From positions 1-64,000 of the forward strand of contig BLLU01000179.1 in NCBI GenBank assembly GCA_011959105.1: a stretch of 64,000 nucleotides of DNA. The letters run 5' to 3'. Origin of the DNA: Lachnospiraceae bacterium. Lineage in GTDB: Bacteria; Bacillota; Clostridia; Lachnospirales; Lachnospiraceae. Shown piece after piece: positions 6,062 through 32,224 of this stretch. Under the pieces are notes generated by a model. That model had not been told where the DNA came from. It searched no databases and saw only the letters and a list, made by a program, of their open reading frames with translations. Position 1 is the first letter of the stretch, and every line of letters begins with the position of its first letter. Both the position numbers and the translations under genes were made by a program.

Positions 6062-6168
6062 GGGCGGGCCGGTATGGAGCAGGATGGAAAAACGGACGGG
6101 CGGCCCAGTCACAAAGGCGCCTTTGCAGCATAGGATAGAGTAACAAACATGGATAGGAAGCATAGCGT

Positions 6169-6513: not shown

Positions 6514-6543
6514 ATACTACAGGAATAAGATGAAAAAAGCGAG

Positions 6544-6569
6544 AGCCCGCCTTAAACGGTCGGGCTTTT
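6544..6569 (+). terminator. Rho-independent terminator
   Basis: AGCCCG...CGGGCT stem followed by TTTT. Confidence 0.75.
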
Positions 6570-6647
6570 GCCTTGTCTTTTGGGAGGTTTTGTGCTATAA
6601 TTCGGATAAAGTTCTGTGACAGAAATGACTTGAGGAGGTATGTGGCT

Positions 6648-7700: not shown

Positions 7701-7710
7701 AGGTATATGA

Positions 7711-7748
7711 AAAGGGCCGGTTTTCTGCGGAAGGGAAACCGGCCCTTT
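7711..7748. terminator. bidirectional terminator between convergent genes
   Basis: AAAGGGCCGGTTTTC/GGGAAACCGGCCCTTT stem. Confidence 0.75.
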
Positions 7749-7764
7749 GTGACGTCCGTGCAGA

Positions 7765-8883: not shown

Positions 8884-9108
8884 AGCATTTTCTCCTCGCT
8901 TTCTGTTTTGGGTTCCGGGGCATAGCCGGAACATTTTTTATAAGATTATATCGAATTTGAAAAAAAATAGCAACTTTGCGTAAAAAAAATGATGCGTTTT
9001 TGAAAAAGCTGTGATAATATTATTTTGAGAAAGTGCCGATGCCTGTATTTTATGCACATTGAACAGTAATTACTGCCGTATTTCCGGCAGCAGAAGCAGA
9101 GGAAACCC

Positions 9109-10170: not shown

Positions 10171-10196
10171 TTTCGTAAATGAGGAAAGGCGGATAC

Positions 10197-13178: not shown

Positions 13179-16100
13179 ATGGTTGTTAAGATGGCAAAAA
13201 TGATGAAAAGCAGAAGATTAAGGAAGAGAGTGAGAAAGACTCTGGGAGCCTTGTTCCTGGCGTCCGCTATTGCGGTGGCGGCGATCCCGGTGGATGATTT
13301 GCAGGCCAGCACGGGGACGAGTGGGAAACTGGGTGTGACGCTGACGGAAGCGGACAGCACGATCCCGAAGATTAAGACGGATGAGCATATCTATGCCACT
13401 GGTGACGGCGTGTATCAGTTTGCCTATGTGAACCCCACATCTGGCGCCGGCGGCAATAAGGTAGCGGTGATCCTGGGATATAACAGCAGCGGACACACTT
13501 TGCCCAACGGTAAACTTACGATTCCCGATACCGTGAACGTGTATGATAAATTTACCGATGTCCAGGGTTCCTCCGACGGCTATGTGGCTGTAGGTCAGCG
13601 GCTGAACTTTCTGTTCTGGAAGCATGTGGTACATGAGAAAGATCCTGCCACGGGTAAGCCGCTGTATGAACAGAAGACGGAGAGCCTTCCGCATTATAAG
13701 CTGCTGGACGGTACTAAGGTATTGAAGTCGGAGTATGATAAGAATCCGTCTGCATATGGAACAAGAGAAACGGAGAAAGTGCAGGCAACGATCAAGGATG
13801 AGAACGGTATTGACCAGCCCCAGTATGACGGCCAGGGGAATCCAATTATGGTGGATAAGACAGATCCCCAGGGGAATGTGGTTTATGTAGTGGTCAATGA
13901 GGATGTGACCAGCGACGATTTGGATAAACCCATTACCCGCACGGAGTTTTTGCCTTGCTACTATGATACCAAGAATACGGAAGTTGGCTGGGGATCATTG
14001 GATTTTGATGAATTCTACACAAGGATAGATGATACGAAGTATGATAAGTCCGATGTCTCGAATTTTAAACTGACAACAGATTCGCTGGATCAGTGGATCA
14101 CCAATGTTGCGGTAGAATACATTGGGAACCAGGCGCTGCACATTGATGAGGTGACTAAGAAGATTACCGTGAGCGACTGGATCACCGCAGCGGATGTGGA
14201 GGCCGGCAAGGTAAAGGGGGTTTTCCAGGGACAGGGAAATATTGTAGACCTGGTGGTGGGGCCTAACCTCAAAGGTATCGGTGATTATGCTTTCTGCTCT
14301 TGTACGGGTTTAATGAGCATTACTCTGGGCAATGGCCTGGAGATCATTGGCAACCATGCCTTTGACAGCTGTCTGAATATCAAGCAGATCATAGTAGACC
14401 CCAACTGTAATATGCGCAGGATTGGGGATCATGCGTTCTACAACTGCCAGAGCCTGGCGGCATTTCAAATGCCCACGCCGGTGGAGGCCATTGGTGACGG
14501 CGCTTTTGAAAACTGCCAGAAATTGGCTACCATTGAATTGTATAGCCCGGACAGGGTTACGGCTTTGAATACGATCGGTGATCACGCCTTTAAAAATTGT
14601 ATCAGCCTGACCAGTCTGGTCATTCCCAACAATGTGACGGGCAACAGCAATTACGATGGCGGTAAGCCGGGAGATAAGTTGAAGCTCAGTATGGTGCAGG
14701 GATGCAAGAATCTGCAGACTATTAAGGTAATAAATGAGAATGCGGATTTTACTGCAGACGGCGCTTATGATTTTGAAGCGTTTAAGGCGGAGATGCCGGA
14801 GACTTTTTACTTTGAAGGTGTCAACACAGCCACATCAAGCAATGTGGCACGGCTGGATACGCTTCATCGCACGGCCAACGACAATAGCATTGCGTTCAAG
14901 TATCTGGATCAGAATGTGTATGAGATTGTCAAGCCGGATCCGGACAATCCCGATAAGAAAGCGATCTTCAGAGTCAATTCCAATAATGAATTGATTTACT
15001 GCTATATAGAAAATGGCATGGAAAATATTATCCTGCCGTCCACCATTGGTCCGTACAGAATTACAACCATCAGTTCCACCAGTTTTCAGCATAACTGCTT
15101 CCTGAAAAAGATAACAATTCCGTCTTCTGTACTGACCATTGCAGACGGTGCTTTTCTGGGATGTCATAAGCTGACGGATGTGATTTTTGAAAGTCCGGTG
15201 CAGTGTAAGATCGGTGCCAATGCCTTTAAGACCCAGGAGGCCGCAGTTCATCAGGCCGGGTGCGACGGCAGTCTGCTGACGGGAAAAGATTTAAAACTTA
15301 CCTTCACAGGGGATATTTCCTATGCCAGCGGTCCCTTTGATTATGCAATGAATCCGTCCAACAACATTAATATTGGCAGTCAGGAGCGCACATATATCAC
15401 GTATTACAGTGGCTGGCCTACCAATCTTACCGTGAAGTATAATGAGGATACAGATAAGAACGAGTTGATTGATTACCCGATCTTTGAGAATCTGGATCAG
15501 AATACCTGGTTAGATCAGTTTCCTTATATGACTGACGAAATGAAGGAGGCGGCAAAGAACGCAAAAGCGAATTTTGGCAGTTCTGCCGATTTGACAGACT
15601 ATGAGAGGGAGATTATCAACTCCGCGCTGAATATCCAGCTGCCCCAGGGTATTGAGTCTGTCAAGAAAGACTTGTTTATAGAGAATGAGAGCAAAGAAAC
15701 CAAAAATGGTCTCGAGAAGACCATTACAACTAACGGTATCAAGGAGATTTTACCGGAGACATTCAAGGGCTGTTTAAACTTGAAGGAACTGTATATTTTC
15801 GGAGACACTTCTACGATTGGTGATTATGCTTTCAGAGACTGTGTGAATCTGGAGAAGGTTGAAATATCGGCCAATGTGAATGCCATGGGCGTTAGGCCGT
15901 TTGCCGGCTGTCCGAATGTGAGTTATGTCAGTTTTCAGGACGGACCCAATTTCCGCTGTGAGGAATCCATTATTTATGGCCTGAACGGCGGAGAAAAAGG
16001 AATGTTGATTGAATGTCTGGAATCCAGAGGCGTCAAGAGCGGTTCTACTTCCGTTAAAGCAGGAGAACTGGCAGGGGTTACAGGGATTGCCAAGGAAGCT

Positions 16101-18134
16101 TTCTATGACTGTTCCGGAATAGGTATTGTGGATTTGAGAGAGTCAGCCATTGATAAAGTACCGGAGTATTCATTTGCGGCCAGCGAGATGGCAAAGAGTA
16201 ATATGTTTGCCGTGTATCTGCCCAAGACCTGTAAGCAGATCCAGAAGAATGCGTTTAAGAACAGTGCCGTCAGTTCGTTGGAAATTCCCGGCAGTGTCAG
16301 CTATATTGATTTGGATGCTTTTAATACAGATAAGAACAGTCCTCATACGGAAACAGAGGAGGACGATGGAATTGCCAGAGAGAAGTATAAGACGATTGAA
16401 TTCTACTGTGAGCCTGACAGCGCAGCCAATATTTATGCGAGCAACCATGGGAATATCAATATCAGCGACAAGCCTATAGAATTGGAGTTCAAAGTGTCAT
16501 TTGGCATATTGAATCCCATCAGCGGTGAACAACAGCTTCTGGAAACCCAGACTGTAAAAGGAGGAGAAGATGCAGTTCCTCCTACGCCTCCCGAATTTGA
16601 AGGCTATACTTTCCTGGGATGGTTCCCTGATTACCGCGGTGTTTCCCGAGATTTGGATTGCTTAGGCTCTTATAAGGCAAATAATCCGGAAGATTCCAAA
16701 CTGACAGTTACCTTTATGGATGAGGATGGCGTGACGGTATTGGGAACGGATCGTGTATTCCCCGGACAGGATGCAAAGCCTCCCGTGGTTCCGGAAAAGC
16801 CCGGAAAGCGTTTTGTTGGTTGGGCGCCTCCTTGCACTAATATTGAGAAGGACACTATTTGTATCGCGAAATATGACAAGGTAGATACAGATGAGAATAA
16901 GTTTACCGTTAATTTTTATGTCACGGGTGATGACGGTAAGGATGTGCTTATTTCTTCCCAGCGCATAGCGCCTGGTGAAAAGGCAACGGAACCCAGGGTA
17001 CCGGAACGGAGCGGCTGGAGATTTACCGGTTGGAAACCGGATGTTACGGAGATTACCAAGGATACGGACACTTATGCCCAGTATGTACCGGTAGGGCCCG
17101 GCTGGCCTACGCCTACGCCTGACCCGAACGCAACGCCGAATCCCAATGCAACGCCGACTCCCGTGCCGGGAGCAACGGCAACACCGAACCCCAATGCGAC
17201 GGCATCTCCGTCCCCGTCTCCTGTGCCCGGTATCTTCACACTTACCGTCAGGAACGGTTCCGGTTCCGGCAGTTATGTGGTGGGCGCCCAGGTTATTGTA
17301 ATTGCGGATAATCCCAGCAACAATTCGGAATTCAGTGGCTGGACGGTGGAGCCTTCAACAGCGGTGGTGGCCAGCAAGTCCTCAATGGGAACCGTGTTGA
17401 TTATGCCGGCATCCAATGTAACTATGACGGCAAACTATAAGTCCAAGACCAATACTGGTAATACGGGAACCGTTACCCGGCCCGGCGGCAGCACAGGCAA
17501 TGGTACCGGAACGGGCAATGGCAGCGGTTCTTCCACAGGCAGCAGCAATGGCACTACTGTTGTGATCAATAAGAATGGCCTTTCCAACACAGGGGTAGTT
17601 TCCGTGACGGTAAACGGCTCTTCGGATAATTTCGTTGTAAAGATTTCGGAAGATGCCAATGCCACGGAGGCAGCGCTGAAAGCTCTGATGAATGAGTATG
17701 GAGATTTGACAAATATTTCCTACTTCCCTATGGACATCAGTCTTTATGATTCTACGGGGACCAATAAGATCACGGATACCACGGGCCTGGCAGTGGATAT
17801 TACTCTGCCTATTCCGGATTCCCTGATCCCTTATGCGGGTAACAACAAGGTTGCAAGCGTGGTGGATGGCAGACTGGAGAAGCTGACACCCAAATTTACC
17901 ACCATATCCGGCGTGCCCTGCATCAGCTTTACGGCCACACATTTTTCACCCTATGTGATTTATGTGGACACCAAGGATTTGTCAGCGGGAACGATTCAGG
18001 ACAGCACCCCCAAGACAGGCGACGGAATTCATCCCAAGTGGTTCCTGGCCATGGGCCTGGCATGTATTTCCTTCATCTTGTTCATTAAGAAAGAGAAGAA
18101 TGGAGTGCCGGTGAAAGCAGCGGCGGCAAGATAA
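13179..18134 (+). CDS. BspA-like leucine-rich-repeat cell-surface protein, sortase-anchored
   Basis: Signal peptide, many LRR_5-type repeats (IGDYAFCSCTGLMSITLGNGLEIIGNHAF), three Listeria-Bacteroides-type repeats, Pro/Asn-rich linker, C-terminal TPKTGDGIHPKWF-TM-KKEK. Confidence 0.88.
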   Translation: MVVKMAKMMKSRRLRKRVRKTLGALFLASAIAVAAIPVDDLQASTGTSGKLGVTLTEADSTIPKIKTDEHIYATGDGVYQFAYVNPTSGAGGNKVAVILGYNSSGHTLPNGKLTIPDTVNVYDKFTDVQGSSDGYVAVGQRLNFLFWKHVVHEKDPATGKPLYEQKTESLPHYKLLDGTKVLKSEYDKNPSAYGTRETEKVQATIKDENGIDQPQYDGQGNPIMVDKTDPQGNVVYVVVNEDVTSDDLDKPITRTEFLPCYYDTKNTEVGWGSLDFDEFYTRIDDTKYDKSDVSNFKLTTDSLDQWITNVAVEYIGNQALHIDEVTKKITVSDWITAADVEAGKVKGVFQGQGNIVDLVVGPNLKGIGDYAFCSCTGLMSITLGNGLEIIGNHAFDSCLNIKQIIVDPNCNMRRIGDHAFYNCQSLAAFQMPTPVEAIGDGAFENCQKLATIELYSPDRVTALNTIGDHAFKNCISLTSLVIPNNVTGNSNYDGGKPGDKLKLSMVQGCKNLQTIKVINENADFTADGAYDFEAFKAEMPETFYFEGVNTATSSNVARLDTLHRTANDNSIAFKYLDQNVYEIVKPDPDNPDKKAIFRVNSNNELIYCYIENGMENIILPSTIGPYRITTISSTSFQHNCFLKKITIPSSVLTIADGAFLGCHKLTDVIFESPVQCKIGANAFKTQEAAVHQAGCDGSLLTGKDLKLTFTGDISYASGPFDYAMNPSNNINIGSQERTYITYYSGWPTNLTVKYNEDTDKNELIDYPIFENLDQNTWLDQFPYMTDEMKEAAKNAKANFGSSADLTDYEREIINSALNIQLPQGIESVKKDLFIENESKETKNGLEKTITTNGIKEILPETFKGCLNLKELYIFGDTSTIGDYAFRDCVNLEKVEISANVNAMGVRPFAGCPNVSYVSFQDGPNFRCEESIIYGLNGGEKGMLIECLESRGVKSGSTSVKAGELAGVTGIAKEAFYDCSGIGIVDLRESAIDKVPEYSFAASEMAKSNMFAVYLPKTCKQIQKNAFKNSAVSSLEIPGSVSYIDLDAFNTDKNSPHTETEEDDGIAREKYKTIEFYCEPDSAANIYASNHGNINISDKPIELEFKVSFGILNPISGEQQLLETQTVKGGEDAVPPTPPEFEGYTFLGWFPDYRGVSRDLDCLGSYKANNPEDSKLTVTFMDEDGVTVLGTDRVFPGQDAKPPVVPEKPGKRFVGWAPPCTNIEKDTICIAKYDKVDTDENKFTVNFYVTGDDGKDVLISSQRIAPGEKATEPRVPERSGWRFTGWKPDVTEITKDTDTYAQYVPVGPGWPTPTPDPNATPNPNATPTPVPGATATPNPNATASPSPSPVPGIFTLTVRNGSGSGSYVVGAQVIVIADNPSNNSEFSGWTVEPSTAVVASKSSMGTVLIMPASNVTMTANYKSKTNTGNTGTVTRPGGSTGNGTGTGNGSGSSTGSSNGTTVVINKNGLSNTGVVSVTVNGSSDNFVVKISEDANATEAALKALMNEYGDLTNISYFPMDISLYDSTGTNKITDTTGLAVDITLPIPDSLIPYAGNNKVASVVDGRLEKLTPKFTTISGVPCISFTATHFSPYVIYVDTKDLSAGTIQDSTPKTGDGIHPKWFLAMGLACISFILFIKKEKNGVPVKAAAAR
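17101..17230 (+). repeat. low-complexity NPNAT/TP-rich linker repeat inside the LRR protein gene
   Basis: Translates to PTPTPDPNATPNPNATPTPVPGATATPNPNATASPSPSPVP. Confidence 0.8.
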
Positions 18135-18144
18135 AGAGGATACT

Positions 18145-20610
18145 ATGAAAATTAAATGGAATGTGATAGGGATTATGCTTATTATAACGGCGGTCCTGAT
18201 CATGCAGATTCCTGTACCGGAGGCGGATGCATCGTCATTCGCTTCCGATTTTAAAATGGACGGAACTACGCTGATCAGTTATACAGGCACGGCAACCGAC
18301 GTGTCTGTTCCGTCTGATGTAAAAGTGATCGGTGAAGGTGCTTTTCAGAACAATACTACCATTACCAGAGTGACAATCCCGGAGAATGTGGAAAAAATAG
18401 AACCCTACGCTTTCTGGGGATGCAGTCAACTGGAAAAGGTGGGGCTGGGAGAGGGGCTTGGCGAGGTGGGAGATTACGTTTTTGCCAACTGCCCGGAACT
18501 TGAGTCGGTCTATTTCCCGGACAATATCGCTCGGATCGGCATTATGGCTTTTGCGGACTGTGCCTCCCTGCGGACTGTCAAAATTCCCTATACCGTGCGT
18601 TCCGTACATGATACGGCTTTTGACGGCTGTTATCGGTTGGAAATCGAATATGATATTGGCACGGAGGGAGAACGTTTTGCCCTGTATTTTTCGGAGAAAC
18701 GGAAGGAAATGCCGGAATACGAGGATATTGAAGATTATGGGGAGATGGTTACACCACCTGTTCAGCCCCCTTCGGAAGGGGAATTGCCCGCGCCGCAGCC
18801 CGGAAATTCAGACAATGTTTCCGGCAGTTTCCTGGAGAATTTGGTCAATGGTATTTCTGATATTTTCGGCGGTTCTGATCAACCGGTTACAGATATTCCG
18901 GGCAGGGAATTGGGCACTTCCACAGTGGTGGGCAATATGGCGGTGGTGTTTATGGATAATACCCAGCCCCAGGTATCAAGCGGGGGAGGTTCGGTGTCTG
19001 AAAGCCGGGAGGCTCAGTCCATGCGGGAATACACCACGGAAAAGGCTAAGGGAACTGTGAAATACACACTGGTGGACGGCAGTGTACTGGCAGATCGGGC
19101 TTACTATGGTTATCAGAATCTGGGGAGTCTGGCGCTGCCGGAAGGCCTGGAGGAGATCGGAGAGTTTTCCTTCGCCAGAAGCAGTTTGCAGGAGGTGGTT
19201 ATACCGGAGGGGGTGACCAGCATTGGCTATGGCGCCTTTTATCATTGCGACCGGCTGGGACAGGTGCAGCTGCCAGGCACAATCACCCATATAGCCCCCA
19301 AGGCCTTTGATCATACCGGCTGGGTAAATCTGTTTTTTGAGCAGGGAGCCGGGGACTATCTGGTGGCCGGGGACGGTATATTGCTGGCCTATAAGGGAAA
19401 GGAAGCGCAGGTCCGCATTCCTGAAGGAATACGGCAGATCGGCCCCGAAGTATTTCAGGGTCATACGGAAATTACTTCGCTGACCCTGCCGGATTCATTG
19501 GAGATCATCGGGGAAGCGGCCTTTGCGGACTGCGATAATCTCAGACAGGTGTCGGGCATGTCCGGAGTGCGGATTATCCGTGACAGGGCTTTTTACCACT
19601 GTCCCCTGGAGTGGGTGGTATTGCCGGCCTCAGTAGAAAGTGTGGGACTGGGGGCTTTTGCCCGACAGGATGTGGGGGGCGTGGTCCTGCTGCAGGGGCA
19701 GGTTCCCGCAGCAGGCCGGGAACTTTCCGCAGACAGGCGGTCTAACGAGGGCTACCGTATCAATGCGTTTGACAATGTGGAATATGTGCTGGCGTACAAT
19801 CATCTTATGGGCCAGGAGTTGGAAGGCACGGTTCTGGACAGCGGACAGACGGTATACAACGGGGTTATGGGACATCTGGAAGACAATGTGCTGGCAGCGG
19901 ATGCCACTTATCTGTCTGTGGCAGAGGTACAGGGCAGATCCTGGAGCGGAACGGTTCGGATTGACGGGCAAAGTTACACGCTGCAGGGCATGGATCAGAT
20001 AAGTTATTCCATACCCAAATGGCAGGTTTCCTCAAGCGGGGATTTGACAGTAGCAGGGGATATGGAACTTCAGGCCCGGCTTTCTCCCCAGGGTGAGGGG
20101 GATTTGCTGCAGGTTCGGAAGCTGGCCGGCATCGGGGAAGCACCGGAACTGGATGCCGCCTACAGGCGGATTTATCAGCAGGGACTGCCTATGGATACTT
20201 TGTGTTATACCCTCAGTCTCTACGAGGGCAGCAGCGGAGGAAGGATTACCCGCCTGGGCAAGCAGGCCTTGGAAGTTACGATGCCTTTGCCGGAGCAGTT
20301 GCAGAATAAGGATTTACGGTTGGTAACAGTAGATCGCAATGGGCAGCTGGAATATCTTCCCGTTGCCACAGACGGTGAGCAGATCAGATTTTCTACGGAC
20401 TATCTGTCGGTATACGGTATTTATGGAAGCGGAAGTTTGTATGCTCAGGGGGATGTGGTGGATGGCCGGGCGGTGATCACCGATTACGGCAGGAGAGACG
20501 CTTCTCCGGATACAGGAGACCCTGTCCATCCCAAGTGGATACTGGGCACAGGCCTGTTGGCCTTGGGGTTGGCAATGATTTTATTACAGCGTAAGAAGAG
20601 GACGGCGTGA
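18145..20610 (+). CDS. second BspA-like LRR cell-surface protein, sortase-anchored
   Basis: LRR_5 repeats (VIGEGAFQNNTTITRVTIPENVEKIEPYAF), C-terminal SPDTGDPVHPKWILG-TM-QRKKRTA; 10 bp after previous CDS. Confidence 0.87.
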   Translation: MKIKWNVIGIMLIITAVLIMQIPVPEADASSFASDFKMDGTTLISYTGTATDVSVPSDVKVIGEGAFQNNTTITRVTIPENVEKIEPYAFWGCSQLEKVGLGEGLGEVGDYVFANCPELESVYFPDNIARIGIMAFADCASLRTVKIPYTVRSVHDTAFDGCYRLEIEYDIGTEGERFALYFSEKRKEMPEYEDIEDYGEMVTPPVQPPSEGELPAPQPGNSDNVSGSFLENLVNGISDIFGGSDQPVTDIPGRELGTSTVVGNMAVVFMDNTQPQVSSGGGSVSESREAQSMREYTTEKAKGTVKYTLVDGSVLADRAYYGYQNLGSLALPEGLEEIGEFSFARSSLQEVVIPEGVTSIGYGAFYHCDRLGQVQLPGTITHIAPKAFDHTGWVNLFFEQGAGDYLVAGDGILLAYKGKEAQVRIPEGIRQIGPEVFQGHTEITSLTLPDSLEIIGEAAFADCDNLRQVSGMSGVRIIRDRAFYHCPLEWVVLPASVESVGLGAFARQDVGGVVLLQGQVPAAGRELSADRRSNEGYRINAFDNVEYVLAYNHLMGQELEGTVLDSGQTVYNGVMGHLEDNVLAADATYLSVAEVQGRSWSGTVRIDGQSYTLQGMDQISYSIPKWQVSSSGDLTVAGDMELQARLSPQGEGDLLQVRKLAGIGEAPELDAAYRRIYQQGLPMDTLCYTLSLYEGSSGGRITRLGKQALEVTMPLPEQLQNKDLRLVTVDRNGQLEYLPVATDGEQIRFSTDYLSVYGIYGSGSLYAQGDVVDGRAVITDYGRRDASPDTGDPVHPKWILGTGLLALGLAMILLQRKKRTA

Positions 20611-20741: not shown

Positions 20742-21692
20742 ATGCAACGCGTCAGAGGACAGATCGGAGCGGAGAGGGTCGATTTAAAATCCTGGCAGAA
20801 ATATGGCGTCACGGTGGCGGTGCTGGATACAGGCATGGCCGTGCATCCGGACCTGGAGGGGCGTTTGGATGCTTTTTTTGATTTTGTCCGGGGAAAGGGC
20901 AGAGAAGCAGCCTGTTATGACGACAACGGTCACGGAACCCATGTGTGCGGCATCCTGTGCGGCAGCGGCAGGATGTCTGACGGCAGATACAGGGGGATCG
21001 CGCCGGACAGCCGCCTGGTGGTATGCAAAGTGTTGGACCATCAGGGAGACGGCAGCATGGAACACATGCTGCAGGGGCTTCTGTTCGTAGAGAGGAATTA
21101 CAGGAGGTATGATATCAGGGTGGTGAATATCTCGGTGGGGATCGGCCAGCTTCGGGATCGGGAGAAGGTCTCCGCGCTGGCTGAAGCGGTGCAGCGACTG
21201 TGGAAGCTGGGGTTGGTGGTGGTCTGCGCGGCGGGCAACAAAGGGCCGGGAGAGAACACGCTCTCTGCCATCGGTACTGGGGATAGGGTAATTATGGTGG
21301 GCTGTCACGACGGAAGCTATCGGCGGGGAGATCCCGGCAGCTGCAGTCTGTATTCCGGACGGGGACAGGAGGGAAGCCGCATCCGCAAGCCGGACCTGGT
21401 GGCGCCGGGAACGGATATCATGTCCTGTAATGCCTACTGGCAGAAGGGAAGACGTCCGGAATACTATACGGTCAAGAGCGGAACATCCATGGCAACCCCC
21501 ATTGTAACGGGATGTGCTGCCCTGCTGTTACAAAAAGAGCCCTATCTGTCCAATGACCGGGTGCGTGAACGACTGATATATTCGGCCCGGGATCTGGGGG
21601 CTCCCTGGAATCAGCAGGGGGAGAGTGGTATTATAGTGTCAAGTTGCAGGAAAATCAGCAAATTTAAAAATAATGTCAATATTTGTCGATGA
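20742..21692 (+). CDS. S8 subtilisin-like serine peptidase, no visible signal peptide
   Basis: VAVLDTGMAVHPDL (Asp), DDNGHGTHVCGI (His), SGTSMATPIVTGCAALLLQ (Ser). Confidence 0.9.
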   Translation: MQRVRGQIGAERVDLKSWQKYGVTVAVLDTGMAVHPDLEGRLDAFFDFVRGKGREAACYDDNGHGTHVCGILCGSGRMSDGRYRGIAPDSRLVVCKVLDHQGDGSMEHMLQGLLFVERNYRRYDIRVVNISVGIGQLRDREKVSALAEAVQRLWKLGLVVVCAAGNKGPGENTLSAIGTGDRVIMVGCHDGSYRRGDPGSCSLYSGRGQEGSRIRKPDLVAPGTDIMSCNAYWQKGRRPEYYTVKSGTSMATPIVTGCAALLLQKEPYLSNDRVRERLIYSARDLGAPWNQQGESGIIVSSCRKISKFKNNVNICR

Positions 21693-21914
21693 AATACAGG
21701 TTTTGTAAATAGAATTCGTGTGATATAATTATCGAGAAGAGTCTTGACGTGTAATAAGCAGTTTTGACATTTATAACATATTGAATCGTTAAGATTTGTA
21801 TGTTACAGAAAAGCAGCCAAAAGGGAGGAGGGGAATCCAGTGGAATAGAAACAGTGAAGTAAATTTTTGGCAGTGATAACAGAGTGTGTGCTGAAGTGCA
21901 AAGGAGGTATAAGA

Positions 21915-22247
21915 ATGATGAAAAGAAAATTGATGAAAAGAATCAAGATAAATACGATTAATGCTTTTGCGCTGTTTCTGACGGCTATCATTTTAACAAC
22001 ACCATTAGTTGCATATGCAGCCTTTGTACAACCGGGATTAGTCAATGGAGACGGTGTGCGCCTAAGAGAAACACCGGGTTTAAATGGAGTTGTCTTAGGA
22101 TTAATGTACAGGGGCGAAAAAATAACATTGAGCGATGAAATCGATCATGATTACCCGGCGTGGGTCTATTTAAGGAGAGAAAAGAATCAGACGGTAGGCT
22201 GGATGGAATGGTCTTATTTTATTCATGATTGGGAGTCGGAATCCTAA
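21915..22247 (+). CDS. small secreted SH3-like protein
   Basis: Signal peptide; NGDGVRLRETPGLNGVVLGLMYRGEKITL resembles a bacterial SH3 domain; RBS aaggagg. Confidence 0.6.
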   Translation: MMKRKLMKRIKINTINAFALFLTAIILTTPLVAYAAFVQPGLVNGDGVRLRETPGLNGVVLGLMYRGEKITLSDEIDHDYPAWVYLRREKNQTVGWMEWSYFIHDWESES

Positions 22248-22260
22248 AGATTGGGTTTTA

Positions 22261-22314
22261 ATACATATTCTATTCTCCCGGTATAGTTTGGAGAGAATAG
22301 AATATGTATTTTTC
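22261..22314 (+). terminator. Rho-independent terminator
   Basis: Perfect 17-bp stem ATACATATTCTATTCTC/GAGAATAGAATATGTAT followed by TTTTTC. Confidence 0.85.
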
Positions 22315-22333
22315 TTTTGAGCGGAGGTATAAG

Positions 22334-23398
22334 ATGGGTTTGAGAAAGCGGATTTTCAAAAGGAAAGTACTGATTTTATCTTTTATTGGCGTATGTTTTC
22401 TATCCGGTTGCGGACAAGAATACGGTAGCGGTCCTTTATCGGAAGCAGCTGACAATCGCGTTACTGAGGAAAACGATATAAATTATTCCGAAAACATGGC
22501 AGAAACGGAAGAGGATGAAGAAGAGGATGCATTGGAAACTGCTGTAAATATGAAAGAAGAATATATTCGCTATAATGGTAATGATGAGATTGACCTGTTG
22601 AGAGCGATGCATCGCTGCGCGTCTGATGGGGAAAAAATATATCTTGCATATGGTGAACCTGATTTATATGTCATGCCAATGGGCGCAGATGAACATTCCA
22701 GGGTATATATTGACAACCCGAAAGAAATGGATATCTGCCATGTTGCCATGGATCCCTATGGGAGGATTCATTTGCTGGCGGCGGATTCCGATGGCGATGA
22801 GTGGTTTATCTGGCGCCTTGATGAAAGCGGTCAGATTGACAAAGAGATTGATATTTCTTCGCACATTGAGACAAAACAGGTGCCGCTTTGGTTTCTGATT
22901 GATAAAGAAGGCAATTATTATTTTCAATGGATGATGAATCGAAATGGGATCATTATAGACAGCGAAGGGGGACTTATGCACAGCTTTTCACCTGAATCGC
23001 TGGAAATCAGATGGATCTACGAAGCCGAAGCAGGAAGGGATGGTTTCATTTATCTTGTTTACGGTGATCAGAGCGACACATTGAAAATAGGCGCGCTTAA
23101 TATGGAAACTTGTTCTATAAAAAAAGAAGAATCCTCCTTTGCGTTTCCTGGAAACGAAACATTCAGTGAAATGTCCATGGGCACGGATACAGATTTTCTA
23201 TTATTTAGCCCATATAGCGGAATCTGGGCTTATGATAATGAAAAAGGAATCCTTGAAAACCGCAAGACGATACCGGATCTGAATATCCCCCAAGATACAT
23301 ATTTCTGGCCTCTTACATTTTTGACTGACGGAAGGCTGCTTCTGTTAGAGAGAACCGAAAATGAGGTCCATTTAAAATATATTCCGGCGGGCGAATAA
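22334..23398 (+). CDS. putative lipoprotein with beta-propeller-like repeats
   Basis: Lipobox LSGC; MDPYGRIHLLAADSDG / IDKEGNYYFQWM repeats; start inferred at 22334 because 22304 lies inside the terminator. Confidence 0.65.
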   Translation: MGLRKRIFKRKVLILSFIGVCFLSGCGQEYGSGPLSEAADNRVTEENDINYSENMAETEEDEEEDALETAVNMKEEYIRYNGNDEIDLLRAMHRCASDGEKIYLAYGEPDLYVMPMGADEHSRVYIDNPKEMDICHVAMDPYGRIHLLAADSDGDEWFIWRLDESGQIDKEIDISSHIETKQVPLWFLIDKEGNYYFQWMMNRNGIIIDSEGGLMHSFSPESLEIRWIYEAEAGRDGFIYLVYGDQSDTLKIGALNMETCSIKKEESSFAFPGNETFSEMSMGTDTDFLLFSPYSGIWAYDNEKGILENRKTIPDLNIPQDTYFWPLTFLTDGRLLLLERTENEVHLKYIPAGE

Positions 23399-23412
23399 GG
23401 AGATTGGGAAAG

Positions 23413-24717
23413 ATGAAAAAGCAGTTTTTATGGGGCGTAACAATGCTATGCTTTTTGCTTGCCGGATGCGGCACAAAGCCGTCTGCGGAAGCAGAGGCAG
23501 ATATCTTGAAGCTGGCGACTTTTCAAGGGAAATCCTCCAGTTTATGTCAATGGGTGGATCGGTATAATGAGAATCATTCGGATGTGAAAATAGAGATCGT
23601 TAATTATCTGGATAATTACCCTGATCTGTATGATGCCCTCAATCAAATAAAAATTGAGATCAGTGCCGGAAAAGGTCCTGATATGGTGGACTTTGGAAAT
23701 CGATATTCACCGCTTGACGCGTCCTGCGGAATAATGATTGATTTATATCCTTTCATGCAAAAGGATAAAATGCTTGACCGGCATAATTTTCAATGTAATA
23801 TTTGGGAAGCCTTTGAAATAGATGACAGTTTGTTTGTTCTTGTACCCAATTATACAATAGACTCCTATGCCACGGATCATGCGGCTTTGGCTGGCTTGGA
23901 TCGTATGAATATTAATCAGTTGGTAGATGCTTACGATATGTTGGATGAGGGGAGTATTCTTTTTCCGGGGGAAACCAAGCTGGCTGTATTTGGAATGATA
24001 TGTTTTGGCAGCCTGGAAAATTATATTGACTGGGGAACTGGCACCTGTGATTTTGACAGTGAAAGTTTTAAAGAACTTTTGCGGTTTTCCAATAGATTTC
24101 CTCTGAATTTAAATATAGATAATGATTACTCGGCAAAAGCGTTTTTTACAGAAGGACGTGCCCTTTTGTATCCGGTATCCATTAATAATGTCTATGGGAC
24201 CGCTTATGTAAGAATGCTTTTTGGAAGTACACCCACATATATAGGATATCCGTTTGATGAGGGGGGAGGAAATATGGCGGAAATTACAAATCTTGCGATC
24301 GGGATCAGTGCATCCAGCCAAAATAAAGAGAAGTCTTGGGAATTTTTAAAGAGCCTGCTTGATGAAGAATTTCAGGACAATATAAAAAGGGGATTGCCTG
24401 TTCGGATCAGCTCTCTGGAAAAAAAAATAGAGGCCGCCATGAGAACAGAATATGACGCAAACGGTGAAAAAGTAGCGAAAGACGCCATACGTTTTGAGGG
24501 GGAAGATCCTGAAAATATTTATGAAATAACTGCGGAAGATGCCGAAATGCTGAAAACAATTATTAATAAAATTGAGTATAACACAGCAGATGATCAAGAA
24601 CTGAAAGGCATCTTACTGGAAGAAGCCGAATATCTGTTTAACAATGATCGAAATGTGGACGATGTTGCGAAAATAATTCAAAATCGCGCAAGCGTATATA
24701 TTAGTGAGAATAAGTAG
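23413..24717 (+). CDS. extracellular solute-binding lipoprotein (ABC-type)
   Basis: Lipobox LLAGC; ILKLATFQGKSSSLCQWVDRYNENHSDVKIEIVNYLDNYPD, GKGPDMVDFGN. Confidence 0.8.
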   Translation: MKKQFLWGVTMLCFLLAGCGTKPSAEAEADILKLATFQGKSSSLCQWVDRYNENHSDVKIEIVNYLDNYPDLYDALNQIKIEISAGKGPDMVDFGNRYSPLDASCGIMIDLYPFMQKDKMLDRHNFQCNIWEAFEIDDSLFVLVPNYTIDSYATDHAALAGLDRMNINQLVDAYDMLDEGSILFPGETKLAVFGMICFGSLENYIDWGTGTCDFDSESFKELLRFSNRFPLNLNIDNDYSAKAFFTEGRALLYPVSINNVYGTAYVRMLFGSTPTYIGYPFDEGGGNMAEITNLAIGISASSQNKEKSWEFLKSLLDEEFQDNIKRGLPVRISSLEKKIEAAMRTEYDANGEKVAKDAIRFEGEDPENIYEITAEDAEMLKTIINKIEYNTADDQELKGILLEEAEYLFNNDRNVDDVAKIIQNRASVYISENK

Positions 24718-24757
24718 AATCACAGCAATTTCTTTTAAAGCCAGGAAAATCGTTCCC

Positions 24758-24806
24758 AAGCAGGAAGCTGACTCCTATACCGGAGGCGGTTCCTGCTTAT
24801 TTTTTG
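24758..24806 (+). terminator. Rho-independent terminator
   Basis: AAGCAGGAA...TTCCTGCTT followed by ATTTTTTG. Confidence 0.75.
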
Positions 24807-24987
24807 CTTAAAAAATGCTTTCTGCCAGATGGCGGTAATGATTTTTCAAATATGCGCTAAGATATGTGAGTAGTCATGGGACAATCCAACAGACGAATAG
24901 AATGAGTATATGATAGCATGCAACCGCGAAAAGAACCAGAACGGCGCGGGGCTGCGCTTATAGATCAGGTATATCAGGAAAGGGGAG

Positions 24988-25263
24988 ATGGCCTTGAAAC
25001 TGTCGGAGGAAATCCTTACAGGAATGGCGGAGGTGGATATTCGAACTGTGGAGATTTCTGAACTCACCGACCTGCGGGATATAGAAATCGACACTTCACA
25101 GCCGGTGGAGAAAAAGCTGGATGCTTTTGCCAGACAGACAAAGAATGTCTATGTGAACCGAATCGGGGACTATGTGGTAAAAGTCCGATTCCAGGAAGGC
25201 GGAGCTACGATAGATGATAAAATGGCGGAATATCTGCGGAGAATGTCGGAAATATACCTATAG
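24988..25263 (+). CDS. small protein, possible DUF6870-type element-associated protein
   Basis: 91 aa ORF directly upstream of the recombinases; family name from memory. Confidence 0.5.
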   Translation: MALKLSEEILTGMAEVDIRTVEISELTDLRDIEIDTSQPVEKKLDAFARQTKNVYVNRIGDYVVKVRFQEGGATIDDKMAEYLRRMSEIYL

Positions 25264-25339
25264 AACATTTTCATAAGGCTTTCAAAAGCCATAAAAGAGG
25301 CTTGTTGCCATCACCAGAATATAAGTCAGGAGTGACAGC

Positions 25340-27088
25340 ATGAAAGAAACGGGGGAACAAAAACCGTTCCTTGCAGCCATGTATCTTCGCCTTTCCAGGG
25401 AGGACAGCGAAGTGGGAACCATCGCTGCTTTCGGAACGGCAGAGAAAAAAGATGGCACATTCAAAGCCGAGAGCAACAGCATCGGCAGTCAGAGAGAGCT
25501 GATCCGCTCTTTTATCGAAGGGCAGATGGATATGGAACTCTTTGACTGCTATGCGGATGACAATTATTCCGGCAGCGATTTCAACAGACCAGAATTTAAA
25601 AGGATGATGAGAGACATTGAGGCGGGCAGGGTGAATTGCGTCATTGTGAAAGACCTGTCCCGTTTCGGGCGGGATTACATCGAGACCGGGAGATATCTGG
25701 AACGGGTATTTCCGGCCCTTGGAGTGCGATTTATCGCGCTTACCGATCACTATGACAGTTTTTCGGCCGATGCCGGAGAGCGGAATATTGTGCTGCCGGT
25801 TAAAAATTTCATAAACGACAGCTACTGCCGGGATATTTCCGTTAAGGTCAAGAGCCAGCTTGCGGTCAAGCGGGGGAATGGGGAATGCCTGGCCGCTTTC
25901 GCCGTATATGGCTACCAAAAATCGCCGGAGAATAGAAATAAGCTGCTGGTGGACGACTATGCCGCCGGGATCGTGCGGAGAATTTTTGCCTGGAAGATTG
26001 AAGGAATGGCGGCTTCCGCCATTGCGGAAAAATTGAATGCCCTTTGCATCCTTTCCCCAAGGGAATATAAGAAATCCCTGGGACTTAACTACCGGGGTGG
26101 ATTTTCAGGGGGAAACAGTTCGAAGTGGAGCGATACGGCGGTCAAGAGGATATTGACCAACGAGATTTACCTGGGCCATCTGGTACAGGGAAAGACGGAG
26201 CGGATCAATTACAAGATAAAGAAATGCGTGGAAAAACCGAGAGAGGAATGGGTAAGGGTGGAAAACACCCATGAGGCCATTGTCTCCTCGGACGATTTTG
26301 CCATTGTGCAGAACCTCCTTAAAGCAGACGGGCGCATCAGCCCGGCGAGGAAAGAGTTAAGCCCCTTTATGGGGCTGCTCTTCTGCGGGGATTGCAGAGA
26401 GCAGATGGTAAGGCGGGTCAACCGCTATAAGGGGACAGAAAAGGTATACTATATCTGCTCCACAAAGAACCGTGGAGAAGGATGCAGCCGCCACAGTACC
26501 CTGGAGGCGGTGTTGAAGGAATTGGCTGAAACTGCCATCCGCCGATATGTTAATGTCTTTCTGGAACAGGGGCGGCTGTACGCACAGGCAAAGGAATGTG
26601 AGGCGAACTTGCAGGCAGTCGTCTATTATAATAGGGAAATTGCCCGTCTCAAACAAGAGAAGGATAAATACTACAGCCTGTGCGCGGGACTGTATGAGGA
26701 TCTGCGCACAGGGGTTATCACCAAGGGGGAATTTGACCGGCTCCGCAGTGCGTTTCAAAGAAAGGCAGAAAAGCTGTCAGCGGCGGAAGAAAACCAGGAG
26801 CGGCTTGTCCGGGAGTCGTTTATATTCGGCCTGCGCAGCGCGGGACGGCTGGCATCCTTTAAAAACTCCCTGGAATTAAAGGAGATCGACCGCCATACCC
26901 TTGCCAGCCTTGTCAAAAGGATCCGGGTCTATGAGGGAAAGCGGGTGGAGATGGAATTCTACTTCACCGACCCGTACCGGGCCATGGCGGACTATAACGA
27001 AAAGGCTGCTTCCGATCCCTCTGGGACATTTATCCCTACCGGGAATGAGACGCAAAATGCGTCTGCCGGAATGGAAAGGAGGGCGTGA
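25340..27088 (+). CDS. large serine recombinase 1
   Basis: AAMYLRLSREDSE resolvase N-term, VKDLSRFGRDYIETGRYLE, recombinase domain, zinc ribbon CGDCREQM...YYICSTKNRGEGC, C-terminal coiled coil. Confidence 0.92.
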   Translation: MKETGEQKPFLAAMYLRLSREDSEVGTIAAFGTAEKKDGTFKAESNSIGSQRELIRSFIEGQMDMELFDCYADDNYSGSDFNRPEFKRMMRDIEAGRVNCVIVKDLSRFGRDYIETGRYLERVFPALGVRFIALTDHYDSFSADAGERNIVLPVKNFINDSYCRDISVKVKSQLAVKRGNGECLAAFAVYGYQKSPENRNKLLVDDYAAGIVRRIFAWKIEGMAASAIAEKLNALCILSPREYKKSLGLNYRGGFSGGNSSKWSDTAVKRILTNEIYLGHLVQGKTERINYKIKKCVEKPREEWVRVENTHEAIVSSDDFAIVQNLLKADGRISPARKELSPFMGLLFCGDCREQMVRRVNRYKGTEKVYYICSTKNRGEGCSRHSTLEAVLKELAETAIRRYVNVFLEQGRLYAQAKECEANLQAVVYYNREIARLKQEKDKYYSLCAGLYEDLRTGVITKGEFDRLRSAFQRKAEKLSAAEENQERLVRESFIFGLRSAGRLASFKNSLELKEIDRHTLASLVKRIRVYEGKRVEMEFYFTDPYRAMADYNEKAASDPSGTFIPTGNETQNASAGMERRA

Positions 27089-27089
27089 T

Positions 27090-28811
27090 ATGGGGAGAAC
27101 ATCAAAGCGTGTCCATGCCCCAGACAGCGCAGCAGCTGCAGTCCAGAGAGCAGGCCGACAAAAACAGCAGGGAACCAAGCTGTATAAGGCGGGTGTCTAT
27201 GCCAGACTGTCCTCAGATCGGGACATGAAAAAGAACGAATCCGCGGAAATGCAGATCGAGATCGCGGAGAAATATGCGGAGGACTGGAATCGGAACCACA
27301 GAGATAAGATAGAAATCGTTGGTCGTTATACCGATCTGGGAAAAACAGGGACGAACTTCGACCGTGTCGCTTTTAAGCAACTGATGCAGGATGTGCGGCT
27401 GGGTGAGATTAACTGTGTGATCGTAAAGGATCTGTCCAGATTTGGCAGGAACTATCTGGAGGCCGGAAACTACATAGAAAAAATATTCCCGTTTTTGGGC
27501 GTCCGATTCATTGCGGTCGCGGACGGGTACGACACAGGCACAAACGGCGGCAACGCAGGGCAGATGGCATCCGAGATAAAAAATCTGGTAAATGACATGT
27601 ACGCCAAAGACTTTTCCGCCAGGGCAAAGCTGTCTCTGAGACAGCGCAGGGAGGAGGGGGCCTATGTGGGAGGCCCGCCGCCCTACGGCTACGAGGCCTA
27701 TCAGGAGGGGCGGGTCAGGAAACTCTGTCCTGACGGGAACACGGCAGAGATTGTCCGTTTAATATATGAGCTGTTTGTGGAGACGGAAAATTGTCAAGCC
27801 GTGGCGGACTGGCTGAAAAAAAGAAGGATCAATCCACCGTCCGCATATAGGAAAAGCGGAGAGGTATACTGCCCGCCAGGGGCAGAGTACAGAGGCTGGA
27901 ACAGGGGAGCCGTGGAACGAATCATAAAAAGCGAGACCTATATCGGCGCCTTGGTGCAGGGCAAAACTTCCCTTACGGCCAGAAAGGAAGAAAACCGTAT
28001 CCGCAAACCGAAAGAAGAATGGGTAAAAAGAGAGAACGCCCATGAGCCATTGATTGACCTGAAATTATTCGAACAAGCCCTGAATATCTGTCGCAGAATA
28101 CAGGAACGCACAAACAGCCACGGGCATCCCACAAAAGGCTGTCCGATCGAAGAAAATATATTTGACAAGGTGCTTTATTGCGGCGTATGCGGCAGGAAGA
28201 TGACCAGAAACAGCCACGTTAAAGAATATGTGGACGGCAGGAGGGAACGCAGAGAGGGGTATTTTTGTCTGAATAGTATCGGCACAAAAAGAGAGCAAGG
28301 TACGCTTACGAACAGAATTTCCAAGACAGAACTGACGGATATTCTGTCTGTCCTGTTTCAGACGGAGTTTACCACTTGGTTAAAACAGCAAAAAGAATAT
28401 GTGGAGCAGGGGCAGGCTCTGGTGCGGCAGAAGCAACAGGAACTGGAGCAGAAACTGCGGCAGACGGACAGGCAGCTTTTGGCGCTTTCAGAGGAAGAGG
28501 GTGAGAAGTATATGGCATACCGCATGGGAAAACTGCTCCAGGAAGAATATGGCCGCTGCCGGCTCTGGAAAGACCAGCGCCTTATGGAATTAGAAAAGCA
28601 GAAAGAACAGTATCAGGAAAGGGCAAAGAATCTAAAACAGAGGGGGGAAGCATACTTAAAGGCAGTGCGTATCTTTTTCAAGCCGAACCCCCAAAAACGA
28701 TTGACGAAAGATCTGATGGAGATATTGATCAAGAAGATATATGTCTATCCGGGAAAGCGGATGGAAGTCGTACTGCCTTACGGTGATGTCTGGACTAAGG
28801 AGGTGAAGTGA
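27090..28811 (+). CDS. large serine recombinase 2
   Basis: AGVYARLSSDRD, VKDLSRFGRNYLEAGNYIE, CGVCGRKMTRN; starts 1 nt after recombinase 1 stop. Confidence 0.92.
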   Translation: MGRTSKRVHAPDSAAAAVQRAGRQKQQGTKLYKAGVYARLSSDRDMKKNESAEMQIEIAEKYAEDWNRNHRDKIEIVGRYTDLGKTGTNFDRVAFKQLMQDVRLGEINCVIVKDLSRFGRNYLEAGNYIEKIFPFLGVRFIAVADGYDTGTNGGNAGQMASEIKNLVNDMYAKDFSARAKLSLRQRREEGAYVGGPPPYGYEAYQEGRVRKLCPDGNTAEIVRLIYELFVETENCQAVADWLKKRRINPPSAYRKSGEVYCPPGAEYRGWNRGAVERIIKSETYIGALVQGKTSLTARKEENRIRKPKEEWVKRENAHEPLIDLKLFEQALNICRRIQERTNSHGHPTKGCPIEENIFDKVLYCGVCGRKMTRNSHVKEYVDGRRERREGYFCLNSIGTKREQGTLTNRISKTELTDILSVLFQTEFTTWLKQQKEYVEQGQALVRQKQQELEQKLRQTDRQLLALSEEEGEKYMAYRMGKLLQEEYGRCRLWKDQRLMELEKQKEQYQERAKNLKQRGEAYLKAVRIFFKPNPQKRLTKDLMEILIKKIYVYPGKRMEVVLPYGDVWTKEVK

Positions 28812-28812
28812 C

Positions 28813-30375
28813 ATGAGGGAAAAGCACAGAACAGCCATTTACCTGCGGATCTCTCAGGAGGATGTCCAGACGGAAATGAGGCAAAGGGGACGGGAGGAGA
28901 GCAACAGCATCAGCAGCCAGAGAAAATATCTGCTGGAATACATAGGCCGCGACACCAGGCTGGCGGACAGTGAAGTGATTGAATTTTGCGACGATGGTTT
29001 TACCGGAACCAACATGGAGCGGCCTGGGATGCAGGAAATGCTGAAACAGGTCAGGCAGAATCGGATCGGCTGCATTCTGGTGAAAGATATGTCCCGTTTT
29101 TCCAGAGATTATATAGAGATGGGAACATATTTGAATCAAATATTTCCCTTTATGGGAGTGGACTTCATAGCGATCAACGACGGATATGACAGCAGGGAGC
29201 ATGGCGGCGCGGCAATTACTCTGGATCTGGCATTCAAGACACTGCTCTATGACCTGTACAGCAAGGACGTGTCCGTCAAAGTAAAAGCATCCTTTGACAG
29301 CAAATGCGCCGGCGGGGAATATGTATTTGGGCAGGTTCCCCTGGGATACGAAAAAAGCAGAGAAGTGAAAAATATGGTGGTCGTCAATAAAAGAGAGGCA
29401 GAGATCGTCCGCTATATCTTTTCTCTGGCGGCGGAAGGCATGAGTACTGCACAGATCGTAAAGAAACTTTACGCAGAGCAGATTCCCACGGCGCGCCAAC
29501 TGCGTTCCCCCGATAAAAAGCCCCCAAAGGGAAAACACATCTGGAGCATGAATGCTGTCCGCAGAATTTTGGACAATCGTTTCTACATTGGGGAAATGGC
29601 CTACGGAAAGACCATCCGCAAGTCCGTTGGCAGTAAGGACAGGATCGCGGTTCCCAAAAGTGAATGGAAAGTGATTGAAAACCACCATGAACCGTTGGTG
29701 ACATCGGAGATGTTTGCCCGTGCGGCAAAGAAGGCTCTGGGCTGCTCCGCAAAAAGAAAGCGGGAAAAGCATCCGCTGACAGGGAAAATATATTGTGGCG
29801 GGTGCGGATACGCTTTGAGGTATAAACCAAGACAGAGAAAACATCCACAACATTTTTGGTGTGATCAACATGCGTTTTTGCAGATACCTGAGTGCTGCAC
29901 CTATATGAATGCGTCCATATTGGAGGAAATGGTTCTTACACTGTTAACGAAAGAGCTGATGCATAGGGGAGACCTGCTGAGGCAGCGGGGGGATCTGGAG
30001 CAGTTTCAGAAACGGATACTGGAGGAATTGGCCGGAAAAGCCAGGGAGTACAGGAAACAGTACCATGGTATGCAGAAAGAAAAGGATTCTCTGTACGAAA
30101 ACTATGCGGATGGACAGATGGATGCCCGGGAATACCGCTGCAGGGCCGATCAGTTGGACGGGCAGATGGAGGAATTGGCGGGTAAGATAAAAGCAGTGGA
30201 GACGGAACAGGACAGGGGGGAAGAAGAGGCGGGGAAAGTGATTCAGGATATGAAACAGATCATCCACTATTTACATTTGGAGGAATTGACGCAGGAGGTG
30301 GTGGATGCATTCATAAAAAAGGTGACGGTATATAAGGGAAAGCGAATGGAGATTGAGTGGGATTATTCAGAGTGA
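28813..30375 (+). CDS. large serine recombinase 3
   Basis: AIYLRISQEDVQ, VKDMSRFSRDYIEMGTYL, YCGGCGYALRYKPR...WCDQHAF; starts 1 nt after recombinase 2 stop. Confidence 0.92.
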   Translation: MREKHRTAIYLRISQEDVQTEMRQRGREESNSISSQRKYLLEYIGRDTRLADSEVIEFCDDGFTGTNMERPGMQEMLKQVRQNRIGCILVKDMSRFSRDYIEMGTYLNQIFPFMGVDFIAINDGYDSREHGGAAITLDLAFKTLLYDLYSKDVSVKVKASFDSKCAGGEYVFGQVPLGYEKSREVKNMVVVNKREAEIVRYIFSLAAEGMSTAQIVKKLYAEQIPTARQLRSPDKKPPKGKHIWSMNAVRRILDNRFYIGEMAYGKTIRKSVGSKDRIAVPKSEWKVIENHHEPLVTSEMFARAAKKALGCSAKRKREKHPLTGKIYCGGCGYALRYKPRQRKHPQHFWCDQHAFLQIPECCTYMNASILEEMVLTLLTKELMHRGDLLRQRGDLEQFQKRILEELAGKAREYRKQYHGMQKEKDSLYENYADGQMDAREYRCRADQLDGQMEELAGKIKAVETEQDRGEEEAGKVIQDMKQIIHYLHLEELTQEVVDAFIKKVTVYKGKRMEIEWDYSE

Positions 30376-30499
30376 AAGGGAGGTAGTTACTTAAGTTCAT
30401 AACACTAATTTGACATCAGCGGGGTGGGGCATGGTGAATCTGAGCGGTCTGCTGGATGGCCCCGGGGAAAGCAGATAGGGAGCAAAAGCAAAAAAAGCA

Positions 30500-30793: not shown

Positions 30794-32224
30794 ATGAGAG
30801 ACAACGAAGCCTTCCAGAGTCGGCCGGTGACCATGAACCAGCACAATAATCTGCTGGAAATTGAAGAGCATATGTATATATTGGACGATGTGGAGAAGCC
30901 CAATGTATTCCGTAATATGTTCCCCTATTCGGAGATTCCCAAGATACCGTTTAATGACAGAATCGTGCCCCATAATATGCCCAGGGAAATCTGGATCACA
31001 GACACCACTTTCCGGGATGGCCAGCAGTCCAGGGCTCCCTACACCACGGAGCAGATTGTGACCATCTATGACTATCTGCATCAATTGGGCGGTCCAAACG
31101 GCATGGTGCGTGCCAGTGAGTTCTTTCTGTACAGCAAGAAGGACAGGGATGCGGTCTATAAATGTATGGAGAGAGGGTATCGGTTTCCGGAGGTCACAAG
31201 CTGGATCCGGGCCAGCAAGGAGGATTTTAAGCTGGTAAAGGAGATCGGCATGAAGGAGACCGGGATTCTGGTGTCCTGCTCGGACTACCATATCTTCCTG
31301 AAGCTGAAGATGACCAGAAGACAGGCCATGGATCATTATCTCAGCGTGATCCGGGACTGCCTGGAGGAGGGGATCAGCCCCAGATGTCATCTGGAAGATA
31401 TCACCAGGGCGGATATCTACGGCTATGTGGTGCCTTTCTGCCTGGAACTGATGAAACTGATGAAGGAATATCAGATTCCCGTCAAGGTCAGGGCCTGCGA
31501 TACCATGGGATATGGCGTCAACTATCCCGGCGCCGTGATACCCAGGAGCGTGCAGGGCATCATCTATGCCATACATACCCATGCAGGAGTGCCTCATGAA
31601 CTGATTGAGTGGCATGGACACAATGATTTTTACAAGGCGGTGGCCAATTCTACCACGGCCTGGCTTTACGGCTGCTCCGGCATCAACACTTCCCTGTTCG
31701 GCATCGGAGAGAGGACAGGCAATACACCGCTGGAGGCCATGGTGTTTGAGTATGCACAGCTGAAGGGCGATTTGAACGGCATGGACACTACGGTGATTAC
31801 GGAACTGGCAGAATATTATGAGAAGGAAATTGGCTATCAGATTCCTCCCAGAACTCCTTTTGTAGGCAAGAATTTCAATGTGACCAGGGCTGGCATCCAT
31901 GCGGACGGGCTGCTGAAAAATGAGGAGATATACAATATCTTTGACACGGAAAAATTCCTGAACAGGCCCGTGCTGTGCGCAATCTCCAACACATCCGGTC
32001 TGGCGGGCATTGCCCATTGGATCAATACCTATTATAAACTCAGGGAGGACCGGCAGGTGGAGAAGAATTCCCCTTTGGTCAGAGAGATCAAGGTCTGGGT
32101 GGATCAGGAATACGCAGGGGGCCGGGTGACGGTGCTGACGGACGAAGAGATCGTGGCTTGCCTGGAGCGGATCTGCGGGGAAAAAGGTTATACCATTGGA
32201 GGCGGAGATGAGCAGTCATTATGA
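30794..32224 (+). CDS. citrate (Re)-synthase-like member of the isopropylmalate/homocitrate synthase family
   Basis: EIWITDTTFRDGQQSRAPYTTEQIVTIYDYLHQLGGPNG, SCSDYHIFLKLKMTRRQA, EWHGHNDFYKAVANS; adjacent to NADP-ICDH. Confidence 0.75.
   Translation: MRDNEAFQSRPVTMNQHNNLLEIEEHMYILDDVEKPNVFRNMFPYSEIPKIPFNDRIVPHNMPREIWITDTTFRDGQQSRAPYTTEQIVTIYDYLHQLGGPNGMVRASEFFLYSKKDRDAVYKCMERGYRFPEVTSWIRASKEDFKLVKEIGMKETGILVSCSDYHIFLKLKMTRRQAMDHYLSVIRDCLEEGISPRCHLEDITRADIYGYVVPFCLELMKLMKEYQIPVKVRACDTMGYGVNYPGAVIPRSVQGIIYAIHTHAGVPHELIEWHGHNDFYKAVANSTTAWLYGCSGINTSLFGIGERTGNTPLEAMVFEYAQLKGDLNGMDTTVITELAEYYEKEIGYQIPPRTPFVGKNFNVTRAGIHADGLLKNEEIYNIFDTEKFLNRPVLCAISNTSGLAGIAHWINTYYKLREDRQVEKNSPLVREIKVWVDQEYAGGRVTVLTDEEIVACLERICGEKGYTIGGGDEQSL

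Follow-up and report, generated by a model that had tools for sequence, protein, structure and literature searches.

Large serine integrases are normally regarded as single-protein tools. The stretch of Lachnospiraceae DNA analysed here (64,000 nucleotides, hereafter the window) carries three large serine recombinases side by side, and the question is why there are three and to what kind of element they belong. The genes, designated A, B and C in their order, are located on the forward strand at 25340-27088 (582 aa), 27090-28811 (573 aa) and 28813-30375 (520 aa), and the A-B and B-C stop-to-start gaps are exactly 1 nt, in agreement with the lengths and spacing given in an earlier note on this DNA. 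The 91-aa ORF that the same note had placed ahead of them was found at 24988-25263 on the same strand, 76 nt upstream of A. It encodes a DUF6870 protein according to Pfam, the structure prediction of which had a pLDDT of 48. The Pfam domains Resolvase and Recombinase scored over cut-off in each of the three recombinases, while Zn_ribbon_recom passed it in A and C and fell slightly short in B. The catalytic serine motif (YLRLS, YARLS and YLRIS, respectively) and the K-D-x-S-R-F-x-R motif are retained in all three proteins. Identity to C is about 32-33% for both A and B, and the proteins are confirmed as divergent paralogues. The best solved-structure match of C was TnpX (2mhc). Identities as XisF, Ccr or IS607 recombinases were rejected, the corresponding models matching only far below their cut-offs.

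In order to define the ends of the element, empty sites were searched for in congeners, as the earlier note had proposed, with the HMGL-like (citrate/homocitrate synthase type) gene to the right of the block (30794-32224, forward strand, outside the element) as synteny anchor. In the nearest congener, G021, an S8 protease gene directly precedes the anchor gene, and the S8 homology of the window ends at about 21618 and restarts at about 30424. An empty site was found in about 20 congeners, in which 65-344 bp separate the S8 gene from the anchor and an intact ..QGWGMVN..LL tail is present; in one further congener this distance is 1008 bp. The empty site and the homology break points therefore place the element at 21620-30423 (8804 bp). 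Its core, GGG, is present at 21617-21619 (attL) and 30421-30423 (attR), the exact cut position being ambiguous by 1-2 nt because G residues adjoin it. When the window flanks are joined, they read CAGCA-GGG-GTGGGGCATGG, colinear and in frame with CAACA-GGG-CTGGGGAATGG of the relative, and translate as ..PWNQQGWGMVNLSGLLDGPGESR up to the stop codon. The recombinase module is thus at one end of an element that is flanked by a short direct repeat (GGG) and inserted within an S8 gene. The idea that these are ordinary chromosomal genes, fixed in the lineage and not mobile, has negligible probability: nothing was found in its favour, and it is refuted by the empty site in about 20 congeners, which shows that the block is not fixed among relatives, together with the reciprocal S8 occupancy described below.

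The insertion target, as established by Pfam (Peptidase_S8), by the junction against an empty-site relative and by translation, is a subtilisin-like S8 protease gene at 20742-21692 on the forward strand. The host part of this gene stops at the left core, and its last codons, up to 21692, are provided by the left end of the element, so that the translation across the junction reads ...PWNQQG/ESGIIVSSCRKISKFKNNVNICR before the stop codon. The severed 3' end of the gene, encoding GWGMVNLSGLLDGPGESR and a stop codon, was found at 30421-30478 (forward strand) and is in frame once joined to the left flank. The left end of the element is GGAGAGTGGTATTATAGTGTCAAGTTG (21620-21650, forward strand, with TATTAT at 21629-21634) and is common to the congeners G067, G021 and G123. 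The right end is TTCATAACACTAATTTGACATCAGCGGG (30396-30423, forward strand, with TTGACA at 30410-30415); the distance from the stop codon of C to the right end is 48 bp. The Asp, His and Ser motifs of the protease are unaffected by the insertion and only the last residues are swapped, so this is probably a low-cost site. A tRNA as target was rejected, no tRNA being present within the window. Two large BspA-type leucine-rich-repeat proteins are encoded in tandem (13179-20610) immediately ahead of the S8 gene, and a similar neighbourhood was seen again in G067.

Between 21620 and 30423 only three genes accompany DUF6870 and the triplet, and all three are located between the left end and the triplet, on the forward strand. 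They encode a bacterial SH3 domain protein of 126 aa (21867-22247; SH3_3), a putative lipoprotein of 364 aa (22304-23398; from the ORF list, no Pfam match) and a solute-binding-protein-like lipoprotein of 437 aa (23404-24717; SBP_bac_1, E 5e-10). The statement in the earlier note that no obvious cargo is seen must be corrected, having been made because the left end was not known. No PADLOC match indicated a defence function for the 364-aa and 437-aa ORFs. A terminator-like hairpin (24784-24798, forward strand; pattern match only) lies between the cargo and the recombinase module. Neither relaxase, coupling protein nor mating-pair genes were found between the element ends in the ORF list and by Pfam, and the assignment of the element itself as an ICE was rejected, its own conjugation genes being absent between the ends. 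With a probability of about three in four, DUF6870 together with A, B and C forms the integration/excision module of a complete 8.8-kb mobile element inserted in an S8 gene.

The constancy of this module was examined in a set of 35 non-redundant triplets from congeners and genome contigs. The A-B-C order was constant, with near-zero gaps, which indicates that the arrangement is not due to chance. In the tree, A, B and C formed near-clean position clades, the single stray A belonging to a stacked five-gene locus that had been wrongly grouped by the script. The distances of A, B and C are correlated, with Mantel r of 0.95-0.99, far above permutations, and the catalytic motifs are conserved at all three positions. 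DUF6870 was found just upstream of A in 32 of the 33 testable triplets. The lone exception is again the wrongly grouped stacked locus, in which the DUF6870 gene is beside the first recombinase. The genome of the window itself contains three triplets and three DUF6870 genes, one per triplet. Among streptococcal recombinases, one from Streptococcus dysgalactiae and one from S. agalactiae join the C clade (support 0.615), while one from S. agalactiae joins the A clade.

These data bear on whether all three proteins are in use. The explanation that a single recombinase works and the other two are duplication relics is favoured by the redundant catalytic domains and by locus L085. There, a C-type recombinase (4861-6562) is accompanied by an undamaged right end and an S8 tail, and neither A nor B was found in the 4.8 kb upstream. 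Its genome is fragmented, and the locus is possibly an exception to the triplet rule or an assembly artefact. Conservation of catalytic motifs and order in three ancient clades argues against this explanation, as do the same positional clades of streptococcal triplets (PMC4701971), and it is very unlikely. A division of labour, in which each recombinase would act as a homomer in its own job (integration, excision, another target or multimer resolution) and would merely be co-transcribed, is in keeping with the full domain set and catalytic motif of all three proteins. The slower evolution of A (about 0.67 identity versus about 0.57 for B and C) would be consistent with different roles, and the gin element uses one of its three recombinases for one reaction (PMC5595907). 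The loss of a single recombinase is rare, the A, B and C distances are almost perfectly correlated, and one pair of ends per element gives no obvious need for three site systems, which makes this version of events rather unlikely. Heteromeric action or division of labour in general is plausible from the sequences; joint use is favoured by the fact that the three are strictly inherited together and that each retains its catalytic motif, and we infer that all three recombinases would be needed. L085 and the gin element count against such a need.

To examine the target preference without bias, 121 congeners were scanned with a model built from 55 bp of the right end only, the target side being excluded. 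Of 22 readable strong right-end matches, about 19 abut S8 sequence, although the overlap between the congeners searched and those used for model building leaves these counts partly dependent on the training set. About 15 of them are at the C-terminal GxG site (one being in frame only with the core taken as GGGG) and 4 are at a second S8 site, WG/IVRGND. The right-end consensus is close to AAAGTTCGTGACAnTAACTTGACATnAnCGGG, and at most loci the right end is continued in frame by the C-terminal tail of an S8 protein, with the pattern G(W/Y/F)G.... An independent left-end pattern gave S8 junctions in nearly all true matches, in the forms ..EWG/ESGIIVSS or ..NQQG/ESGIIVSS, each followed by a stop codon. 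Most of the related elements are thus located within S8 genes, where they use two or more conserved positions. A few have instead entered an M23 peptidase or amidase_3 gene, and there too the insertion is at a glycine codon. Of about 5 S8 loci in the genome of the window, 3 contain an element of this kind (C178, C243 and C83), that of C243 being at the second site. On C83 (L129, 1-2817), an S8 fragment has a C-type recombinase on its 5' side and the left end of another element on its 3' side (..DPYLYD/AVIIGLS and a stop codon), apparently because this one protease gene was hit twice, each time at a conserved site. At another locus (L106, 6523-8466), an S8 protease with a CspB prodomain, of the germination protease family, is encoded beside a decayed triplet, which raises the question of sporulation-linked excision.

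Mobility is further indicated by sister elements. In G021 and G123, another S8 gene is occupied by a related element (C 81-87% identical), the left and right element ends being on different contigs and inferred to belong together in each genome. The counterpart of this S8 gene is intact in the genome of the window (C268), with the same tail, GYGRLNLRRVFDVLAGVTGG and a stop codon, while the S8 site of the window is empty in G021, so that occupancy is reciprocal. G067 shares the left end of the window's element and its position in the S8 gene, but there ParA-type genes adjoin it; one set of ends serves small and ICE-like elements. The comparison with other triplet elements, also put forward in the earlier note, revealed ICE-like relatives and others with Gabija, Septu, AbiE or RnlA-like genes. 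Gabija and Septu genes were found between C and a right end in L097 and L109, AbiE and RhuM genes in L103, and an RnlA-like protein in L118. In L103 (11256-16451), stacked units without recombinases contain HATPase/RhuM and AbiE-type genes; they are bounded by two further copies of the right end, and an S8 tail comes after each copy. In L199, an intact S8 gene is followed by a cassette (4781-10190) with DUF6870, an AAA ATPase and a DUF6414 protein but no recombinase, then by a right end, behind which lies another S8 tail, 78% identical to the first. The latter appears to be a tail-restoring cassette, whereas the left end in the window is tail-replacing. Recombinase-less units of this kind may be moved in trans.

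The right ends of three sister elements contain three direct repeats of about 22 bp, spaced 33 and 79 bp, and such repeats at fixed spacing suggest an ordered protein-DNA complex. In the window, only the core repeat copy is present and the two accessory repeats are missing. In addition, the fourth zinc-ribbon cysteine, which is kept by most B proteins, is missing from B of the window (27090-28811) and from that of G123 (L076 B). In view of these two losses, the element of the window could be weakened. They would also fit a decayed derivative, an internal-deletion remnant of a larger ICE with the same ends that no longer moves by itself, as would the lack of a relaxase or conjugation gene between the ends and the ICE-like relatives with parA-type genes by the same left end. 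Nevertheless, the module with its four genes is intact, as are both ends and the core, and compact elements with different cargo occur independently (L111, about 7.05 kb; L115, about 12 kb; G021, with a two-component system), and a remnant of this type is unlikely. The ends allow one minor idea, that of a possible promoter spanning the joined ends in attP. All 7 attP reconstructions contain TTGACA, and in 5 of the 7 elements the joined ends place it 17-18 bp from a good -10-like hexamer (TATTAT or TATAAT). Lyras and Rood are said to have described, in 2000, a possible promoter formed at the circle junction of Tn4451/TnpX-type elements. Against this idea, TTGACA resembles part of the recombinase binding repeats, and the hairpin mentioned above separates the cargo of the window from DUF6870.

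For the module of a complete element, which is the preferred reading, the comparative data suggest the following mechanism. A, B and C would work together as one integrase machine, either on different half-sites or as mixed dimers or tetramers on attP and attB, and attP x attB recombination would take place at GGG within a conserved glycine codon. DUF6870 is a candidate accessory or directionality factor, and excision would restore the protease tail. Since the ends are common to larger ICE-like relatives, transfer of the window's element may depend on them. A bolder version, which is put forward tentatively and is doubtful as a whole, would make DUF6870-A-B-C an obligate four-protein machine. 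The three different recombinases would assemble into a single mixed synaptic complex on asymmetric sites, DUF6870 would be the directionality factor, and the machine would be specialised on conserved glycine codons in genes for proteases and cell-wall hydrolases and would also mobilise recombinase-less defence cassettes sharing its right end.

Several known systems resemble this element. SCC elements contain more than one large serine recombinase (CcrA/CcrB, two paralogues), are inserted near the 3' end of a gene (rlmH) and form stacked cassettes, some of them recombinase-less. The elements described here are similar in having several recombinases, insertion at a gene 3' end, stacked recombinase-less cassettes and, in relatives, defence cargo; they differ in having three paralogues and an S8 target, and the proteins of the window score far below the Ccr equivalog cut-offs. 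Membership of SCC was rejected on the basis of the Ccr models and of the target, S8 and not rlmH. Tn4451/TnpX-type elements have a large serine recombinase of related sequence, as indicated by the best solved match of C, but only a single one, and their ends and target differ from those in the window.

A further resemblance is to the "triplets of serine integrases" of streptococcal ICEs, which form position-specific clades (Ambroset et al. 2016, PMC4701971). Triplets as such are therefore known since 2016, and the novelty implied in the earlier note does not hold. According to the available part of that paper, both systems have three adjacent large serine recombinases in the same orientation near one end, position-specific clades, insertion inside protein-coding genes and short direct repeats (2-8 bp in streptococci, GGG here); three adjacent co-oriented genes with Resolvase and Recombinase domains in each, and clustering by triplet position, were likewise found in the window and its relatives. 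The streptococcal targets are mutT, traG and hsdM, whereas mainly S8 protease genes are used here, and the streptococcal triplets are in ICEs with conjugation genes, unlike the small element of the window. The DUF6870 partner and the end structure are described here and are not reported for streptococcal triplets in the same part of the paper. Three serine recombinases are likewise present in gin, a non-phage element inserted in gerE of Bacillus cereus. Excision, which in gin-type elements is under sporulation control, restores the gene and needs only GirC and a separate small factor, GirX; girA and girB are in an operon and girC is far away, whereas the triplet of the window is contiguous (PMC5595907). 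In the open-access literature, no paper on DUF6870, no report of S8/subtilisin genes as target of serine-recombinase elements and no earlier description of the DUF6870 partnership or of shared-end cassettes was found. On the strength of these comparisons, the exact ends, the constant DUF6870 gene, the preference for the S8 family and the shared-end cassettes appear to be new.

Taken together, a widespread module of three recombinases and a small protein, with mapped attP and attB, makes the question of why there are three testable with minimal sites. For Lachnospiraceae, the data point to S8 protease genes as a common insertion hub for ICE-like elements, small elements and defence cassettes.
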